In this document: positions 22,410 to 25,679 of the stretch, piece after piece
Layout: every line of letters starts with the position of its first letter
Numbering within the stretch: position 1 is the stretch's first letter
Source of the DNA: Candidatus Berkelbacteria bacterium
GTDB lineage: Bacteria; Patescibacteriota; UBA1384; DTJR01
Length of the DNA: 41,491 bases
Assembly (NCBI GenBank): GCA_029865605.1
Contig: JAOUGE010000008.1
Coordinates: 1 to 41,491 of the forward strand
Direction of reading: 5' to 3'
Translations under genes and position numbers: made by a program
The notes under the pieces: generated by a model
What the model was told of the DNA's origin: nothing
The model's database searches: none
What the model saw: only the letters and a program-made list of their open reading frames with translations

Positions 22410-22560
22410 TGGTCAGGGTGGCGAGACTCGGTCACAGATAATTTTTTGCTAAAAATTTCCGCGACCCCGCCTCGCTCGCCTTTGCTCGCTGCGGCCTTCG
22501 AGTCTGTAGCACCCTCTCAAATATGGCTGATCACCGGCCTGCGGCCGCTGACTAACCATC
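22410..22560 (-). repeat. tRNA-3'-end-capturing structured element, copy A (behind tRNA-Pro)
   Basis: Core GACTCGAAGGCCG..GAGGCGGGGTCGCGGAAATTTTTAGCAAAAAATTATCTGTGACCGAGTC shared with copy B; terminates in a 21-bp copy (1 mismatch) of the tRNA-Pro 3' end. Confidence 0.85.
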
Positions 22561-22637
22561 TGGTCGGGGTGGCGAGACTCGAACTCGCGACCTCTGGACC
22601 CCCAGCCCAGCGCACTAACCAACTGTGCTACACCCCG
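22561..22637 (-). tRNA. tRNA-Pro(GGG)
   Basis: Acceptor CGGGGTG/CACCCCG, anticodon loop CTGGGGG, T-arm GCGAGTTCGAGTCTCGC, encoded CCA. Confidence 0.93.
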
Positions 22638-25446: not shown

Positions 25447-25533
25447 GCCGGGTTGGCAGAGCGGTCAATTGCACTTGACTGTAAATCAAGCGCCCTCGTG
25501 GCTTCGGAGGTTCGAATCCTTCACCCGGCACCA
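25447..25533 (+). tRNA. tRNA-Tyr(GTA)
   Basis: Acceptor GCCGGGT/ACCCGGC, anticodon loop CTGTAAA, long variable arm, encoded CCA. Confidence 0.95.
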
Positions 25534-25679
25534 AGAGCCCTCGCATCAGGCATCTGTTTGATGCGAGGGCTATTTGGGAGGGAGGGATTCGAAGGCCGGA
25601 CTAGCCTTGGGCTGGGAGGCGGGGTCGCGAGATTTGCCAGCAGGCAAATACTTGTGACCGAATCCTTCACCCGGCACCA
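25534..25679 (+). repeat. tRNA-3'-end-capturing structured element, copy B (behind tRNA-Tyr)
   Basis: 13-bp perfect hairpin 25536-25571, core GGATTCGAAGGCCG..GAGGCGGGGTCGCGAGATTTGCCAGCAGGCAAATACTTGTGAC, then an exact 21-bp copy (25659-25679) of the tRNA-Tyr 3' end CGAATCCTTCACCCGGCACCA (25513-25533). Confidence 0.88.

Follow-up and report, generated by a model that had tools for sequence, protein, structure and literature searches.

A putative family of gene-less mobile elements with tRNA-matched arms behind tRNA genes of Patescibacteria

Patescibacteria have tiny genomes with few known mobile elements. Downstream of the E. coli gene tyrT lie the RtT repeats (Rfam RF00391), in which each repeat unit finishes in a duplicate of the tRNA 3' end; a group II intron needs a reverse transcriptase in order to be mobile. 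Among the other described systems that come closest to the one reported here, tyrosine integrases usually cross over in the T loop and leave displaced tRNA fragments (PMC4383910), the integron integrase recombines folded single-stranded sites (PMC8946536), and insertions of Rickettsia palindromic elements and miniature inverted-repeat elements (MITEs) have been reported in RNA genes (PMC2229807).

By what means does a single element suit a variety of tRNA genes while matching each of them? The question is raised by two short units, copies A and B, in the window, by which we mean the whole stretch of DNA analysed: 41,491 nucleotides of Candidatus Berkelbacteria bacterium (assembly GCA_029865605.1, contig JAOUGE010000008.1). 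Both are members of a family of structured, gene-less units of about 100–180 bp. Each unit has a tRNA or tmRNA gene immediately 5' of it, in the same orientation, and the tRNA remains intact. Read 5' to 3', the unit opens with a hairpin (H1) and a 5' arm; these are followed by a conserved core of two helices, and the unit closes with a duplicated tRNA 3' end from C56 onwards. We call the end of the tRNA itself tail 1 and the duplicate tail 2.

Two copies in the window and their family

Copy B follows tRNA-Tyr on the forward strand. Its tail 1, tRNA-Tyr C56–A76 (CGAATCCTTCACCCGGCACCA, 25513–25533), is identical to tail 2 (25659–25679), which stops at the tRNA 3' end as the repeat does throughout the family. 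Directly after the tRNA 3' end stands H1, a predicted 16-bp hairpin (25536–25571). Sequence, folding and the family tests given below all identify GGATTCG (25585–25591) as the arm, complementary to positions 56–62 of tRNA-Tyr; the pairing can be extended 5' to about 25580. The core (25592–25658), arranged as AAGGCCGG..P2..GAGGCGGGGTCGCG..P3..GTGAC, is supported by covariation and by a score of 85 bits against our covariance model R1. Its two helices, closed by arm and tail, form a three-way junction.

Copy A follows tRNA-Pro on the reverse strand and has the same build; in both copies a core of the form TCGAAGGCCG..GAGGCGGGGTCGCG..GTGACC leads into the tRNA 3'-end copy from C56. Here tail 1 is tRNA-Pro C56–A76 (CGAGTCTCGCCACCCCGACCA, 22561–22581), followed by H1, recognised by sequence and fold (22523–22559), and by the arm AGACTCG (22499–22505), complementary to tRNA-Pro 56–62 by sequence and by the family tests. 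The conserved core (22431–22498) scores 88.1 bits, and tail 2 (22410–22430) duplicates tRNA-Pro C56–A76 with one C-to-T change. An outer arm, AGGGTG (22510–22515), is complementary to CACCCT of tail 2, but pairing at this distance does not characterise the family.

A sequence-only reading of this DNA had called attention to these complementarities, and the motifs are all present as it described them: GGATTCG in copy B at 25585–25591, its complement CGAATCC twice, starting at 25513 within tRNA-Tyr and at 25659 within the terminal repeat, and AGGGTG (22515–22510) and AGACTCG (22505–22499) on the minus strand of copy A. That reading also drew an argument from the C-to-T change, which stands in part. 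The repeat does read CACCCT where the tRNA reads CACCCC, with the T facing an A of the arm, but family-wide the pairing past position 64 is at chance. The seven-nucleotide match of copy B alone is little proof; the family supplies the proof.

How widespread is the family? Of the 287 genomes of the phylum that were sampled, 37 contain matches to R1, which was built from 22 copies; 169 copies were examined across the carriers. In the window genome (G000; 794,328 bases in 22 contigs) the model finds at least 13 copies; there are four exact core matches, one of them behind tmRNA and one behind tRNA-Ile. The host genes of the family comprise 18 tRNA types and tmRNA; within a genome only a minority of tRNA genes bear the element. 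The nearest tRNA is on the same strand in every one of the 169 copies whose locus contains a tRNA, and in 116 copies the distance downstream of it is at most 150 nt. For about 20 copies no tRNA was found in the locus, in some cases owing to a contig end, and several copies lacking an adjoining tRNA still terminate in a tRNA-like 3' end with CCA.

A genome-wide pattern scan gave, among the matches listed, many chance matches in GC-rich genomes, true copies being marked by a downstream GACCGA. The confirmed ones among the listed matches belong, by their record titles, to Nomurabacteria, Yonathbacteria, Kaiserbacteria and Paceibacterota, some being titled only ‘bacterium’. R1 gave no match in 40 genomes reached via chance pattern matches, all non-Patescibacteria by record title, and a search of viral contigs yielded a single match that we judged to be chance. 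When the window was searched against Rfam, with gathering cut-offs and E-values, only tRNAs rose above the cut-off; the remainder was chance, and no Rfam RNA family was matched. The open-licence literature yielded no description of the element, and the family thus appears to be undescribed in Rfam and in the open-licence literature searched.

Some loci depart from the single-unit arrangement. A single tRNA is followed by tandem units of uniform orientation at L160, L192, L198, L023 and L158 (9480–9754). At L003, the tmRNA copy of the window genome, a second small hairpin, GGAATCGAAAGCGTGACCGATTCC, stands just 3' of tail 2; in it arm and tail recur on either side of a very short loop, and it resembles a miniature unit that lacks the core. 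At L382, tRNA-Ala(ggc) of genome G151, the T arm is altered and a second copy of the altered 3' end lies about 130 nt downstream with no recognisable core; a decayed or different insertion is the reading we offer.

Arm complementarity, fold and empty sites

Does the arm follow the tRNA next to which it lies? To answer this we took the 115 copies with a tRNA at most 160 nt upstream and scored tRNA position 59. It is Watson-Crick complementary to the arm in 109 of them, as against a mean of 33.5 and a maximum of 54 in 20,000 permutations. Permuted within genomes only, the count is 82 of 86 (mean 37.0, maximum 56). Positions 57 and 62–64 likewise track their own tRNA beyond every within-genome permutation; positions 65–66 do not. 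The complementarity is limited to about 54–64, centred on the insertion point. The sequence-only reading had held that the variable part of the unit tracks the host tRNA, and had named co-variation of the arm with the adjoining tRNA as the check; both permutation tests bear it out decisively.

Tail 2 is 81–95% identical to the tRNA over positions 57–68. Among the cells where the two disagree, 63 have an arm that suits the tRNA and 7 an arm that suits the tail. This preference needs no continuing function, since arm and tail may decay independently after insertion while selection holds the tRNA; over 57–62 arm and tail mismatch the tRNA at similar rates. A recurrent arm variant has GAGAA instead of TCGAA, in copies from G159, G096, G151, G050 and G245 (for example L198 and L221), and would set tandem G-A mismatches opposite tRNA G57-A58.

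As a single strand the core forms a fold with strong covariation: across 118 aligned copies pairing is kept in 91.9% of cells, with 589 double changes as against 157 in shuffles and slid controls nowhere near. This alignment was fitted to the model and so favours the structure, but the first alignment of 22 copies was not so fitted and also covaries. One G-U pair is conserved in 110 of 115 copies. The tRNA-sense strand out-folds its complement in the copies tested, with DNA parameters too, although in one copy only slightly. Folding and covariation together speak for a functional single strand, whether RNA or DNA, rather than for a double-stranded protein site alone.

H1 starts 0–3 nt past the tRNA in most copies and is unusually stable (mean z −4.4, 86% below −2), whereas element-free tRNA flanks have a mean z of −0.9. 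H1 is part of the insertion. We also considered it as an old tRNA terminator; this was ruled out, the empty flanks having no such hairpin and H1 being T-rich in only 23%.

What does a tRNA locus look like without the element? We compared three species of one genus (G159, G096 and G151). At tRNA-Arg(gcg) the element is present in G159 and the orthologous locus of G096 is empty; at tRNA-Leu(gag) it is present in G159 and absent from the orthologous locus of G151. The flank downstream of the empty locus resumes after tail 2 of the filled one, and the duplicate itself, 19–21 nt long, runs from C56 and stops at the tRNA 3' end. The comparison that the sequence-only reading had called for, a search for empty sites at orthologous tRNAs, thus showed, in place of a bare tandem duplication, a precise insertion that left a 21-nt repeat. 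From these clean empty sites in sister species we conclude that a site-specific mobile element is at work.

Core similarity is 0.577 within a genome on different tRNAs; cores behind one tRNA type but in different genomes are less alike (0.412). In G159, tRNA-Arg, tRNA-Gly and tmRNA are followed by cores that are about 97% identical, with different H1, arm and tail. Either the element is re-tailored on arrival, or resident copies exchange their cores. Direct comparison of sequences in G151 favours some exchange: two versions of P2 and two of P3 occur in all four combinations, behind Lys(ctt), Lys(ttt), Arg(cct) and Ser(gga), and this mosaic suggests core exchange by recombination, so that short-tract exchange does appear to occur. 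Two loci conflict, their linkage running in opposite directions: at tRNA-Lys(ctt) of G151 the arm agrees with an altered tRNA tail while tail 2 has the sequence of the sister-species orthologue, and at tRNA-Gln(ctg) of G096 the arm agrees with tail 2.

Of 26 genes without CCA, five are followed by a tail that has it. As proof of an RNA intermediate this was rejected, being undermined by G094, whose tRNA genes mostly encode only C74 of the CCA but in 8 cases out of 39 encode it in full.

A mechanism and its competitors

Which enzyme might move such a unit? The families searched were Y1 transposase, RVT_1 and Phage_integrase. Y1_Tnp (PF01797) is absent from the window genome and from the copy-rich genomes G159, G151, G094 and G050, and is not enriched in carriers (17 of 37, as against 137 of all 287). 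RVT_1 is absent from the same five genomes and is likewise not enriched (15 of 37 and 103 of 287, respectively). Here the analogies of the sequence-only reading prove weak: it had loosely likened the arm to the guides of IS200/IS605 elements and to intron pairing, and neither the transposase of the one nor the reverse transcriptase of the other is found in G000 or the other copy-rich genomes, nor does the window contain an Rfam intron match. G000 and G094 have exactly one Phage_integrase gene each, Xer-like in sequence by eye.

An autonomous copy was sought in the neighbourhood of the copies; none was found, nor was a recurrent integrase or any enzyme linked to the element. The neighbours that recur most are housekeeping genes and, next to a few copies, genes for LAGLIDADG-like or HNH proteins. 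A LAGLIDADG-like motif marks proteins near copies in six genomes (for example L227, 988–1572; L252, 2258–2950; L204, 2280–2867); HNH proteins lie near copies in three (L059, 4245–4736; L264, 3605–4015). For the former Pfam gives only a helix-turn-helix, in two of them. Possibly both are mere residents of tRNA neighbourhoods.

We rate the family as a variant of tRNA-targeted non-autonomous mobile DNA. In its specific form, our reading is that the two copies in the window belong to a family of non-autonomous, site-specific mobile elements, widespread in Patescibacteria, whose members are moved in trans and insert at the end where a tRNA or tmRNA gene has its T arm; we put its chances at about even. 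Pairing of the arm with the 3' segment of the tRNA, on the tRNA-sense strand, would close a three-way-junction recombination site. A recombinase supplied in trans, most probably an Xer- or integrase-type tyrosine recombinase, would then exchange strands near T55/C56, leaving one tRNA tail that restores the gene and another displaced downstream. The arm would serve as the closing strand of the folded site and would limit which tRNA genes fit. If the unit were circular, its closing helix would have the arm for one strand and the tRNA tail for the other, and a tRNA-matched arm would then be expected even with no guide function. Action of a tyrosine recombinase in trans on a folded single-stranded site is the model we favour, by analogy with the T-loop crossovers of tyrosine recombinases and with the integron integrase, which acts on folded single strands.

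Several observations sit uneasily with this model. A tail-swapping integrase would damage the tRNA of another species. Near-identical cores with different arms, H1 and tails imply, if an integrase is responsible, that tail and arm are re-made or that the core is exchanged by recombination. The conserved G-U pairs would fit an RNA equally well, and the roughly 20 copies with no tRNA found alongside count against a mobile element of this kind. A new class of mobile element, in which a folded single strand of DNA or RNA targets the T arm of tRNA genes by a rewritable arm and is re-tailored for each new tRNA, seems to us a minority prospect.

Could the unit instead work as RNA? A structured RNA co-transcribed with the tRNA, whose arm would control the folding, 3' processing or turnover of the tRNA by pairing with the T arm of its precursor or with tail 2, would account for the promoter-like sites upstream of the tRNAs, the conserved G-U pairs and strong covariation, and the arm that fits the tRNA over tail 2 (63 as against 7); in the window the stretch from tRNA to core showed no terminator on the sense strand. 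Such an RNA is harder to reconcile with a patchy presence (37 of 287 genomes), with presence and absence at orthologous tRNAs of sister species, with the mere minority of tRNA genes per genome that carry the element and the orphan copies that have no tRNA, and with mismatch rates at 57–62 that are similar for arm and tail 2, as in neutral decay. We regard it as unlikely. The pairing data would also suit an arm that is a true guide, the programmable part by which an RNA- or DNA-guided machinery picks tRNA genes: complementarity is confined to about 54–64 around the insertion point, and the arm tracks R57, N59 and 62–64 of each tRNA. But near-identical cores in one genome bear different arms, so that the guide would need rewriting at or after insertion, unlike a fixed one, and no guide-using enzyme was identified; a true guide is rather doubtful. 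The sequence-only reading as a whole survives in part, in the tracking arm and the precise empty sites; the arm may guide insertion, while the analogues it named are weak.

The remaining accounts fare worse. Single-strand transposition of the IS200/IS605 or REP type by a Y1 HUH transposase, in which the arm would serve as the guide, lying 5' of the hairpin foot, and the right cleavage site would be the tail, recalls the layout of a right end as guide, hairpin and end sequence (PMC6006769). Yet Y1_Tnp is no commoner in carriers than overall and is missing from five copy-rich genomes, and that mechanism does not yield a tail that copies the local tRNA end at length; this very improbable account is already largely refuted. 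Equally hard to credit is RNA-mediated copying, the reverse transcription of a tRNA–element transcript with template switching. It would explain the stop of the repeat at the tRNA 3' end, the five CCA tails behind the 26 CCA-less genes and the mosaic modules; against it stand the distribution of RVT_1 and the weakness of the CCA hint, given the tRNA genes of G094 that encode CCA. Least probable of all is simple duplication of the tRNA 3' end with no mobility, as in the RtT repeats, the arm matching by chance or drift. Tandem copies do occur (L160, L192 and L198 among them), but one core type stands behind 18 tRNA types and tmRNA, the empty sites are clean and the arm matches beyond chance. As a full account simple duplication is refuted.

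If the mobile-element reading is true, a gene-less, phylum-wide element behind a sizeable share of a genome's tRNA genes adds a strategy of tRNA targeting, and an arm matched to each host tRNA is perhaps a programmable insertion site. The element may also confuse the annotation of tRNA and tmRNA 3' ends in Patescibacteria genomes.

Comparison with described systems

The family is like Islander-type islands, which tyrosine integrases insert into tRNA and tmRNA genes, in its target, its T-loop crossover region, its intact tRNA with a displaced 3' fragment and its clean empty sites. It differs in that its units of about 100–180 bp are too short for a gene and hold no integrase, and in having many copies on different tRNAs per genome, a tRNA-matched arm and a conserved folded core. 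With integron cassettes and their attC sites it shares a folded single strand, paired outer boxes, stems of variable length, a strand preference and tandem arrays in one orientation. However, attC is one imperfect hairpin rather than a three-way junction, and the family has no cassette genes; its outer boxes are the tRNA-derived CGANTCC, whereas attC has R''/R' boxes with a GTT cleavage triplet and is served by IntI. No integron integrase was identified; the single Phage_integrase genes of G000 and G094 look Xer-like by eye.

The ends of IS200/IS605 elements and REP sequences resemble the family in a guide-like stretch 5' of a hairpin and in non-autonomous copies moved in trans. Their guide is a tetranucleotide, in contrast to a tRNA-matched arm of about 9–11 nt, and the family has a 19–21 bp tRNA repeat and copy-rich genomes with no Y1 transposase. 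Group II introns have ribozyme domains and an intron reverse transcriptase; the window has no Rfam intron match and G000 no RVT_1. Bacterial MITEs and Rickettsia palindromic elements (PMC2229807) are also under 200 bp, non-coding, palindromic and present in many copies; the family, unlike them, lies strictly 3' of tRNAs, has a target-matched arm and apparently no terminal inverted repeats of the MITE type, and its duplication is the tRNA 3' end, 19–21 nt long. The RtT repeats, finally, also lie downstream of a tRNA and end in a copy of its 3' end, but their sequence is unrelated to that of the family, which matched no Rfam family, and they are found behind one tRNA only.
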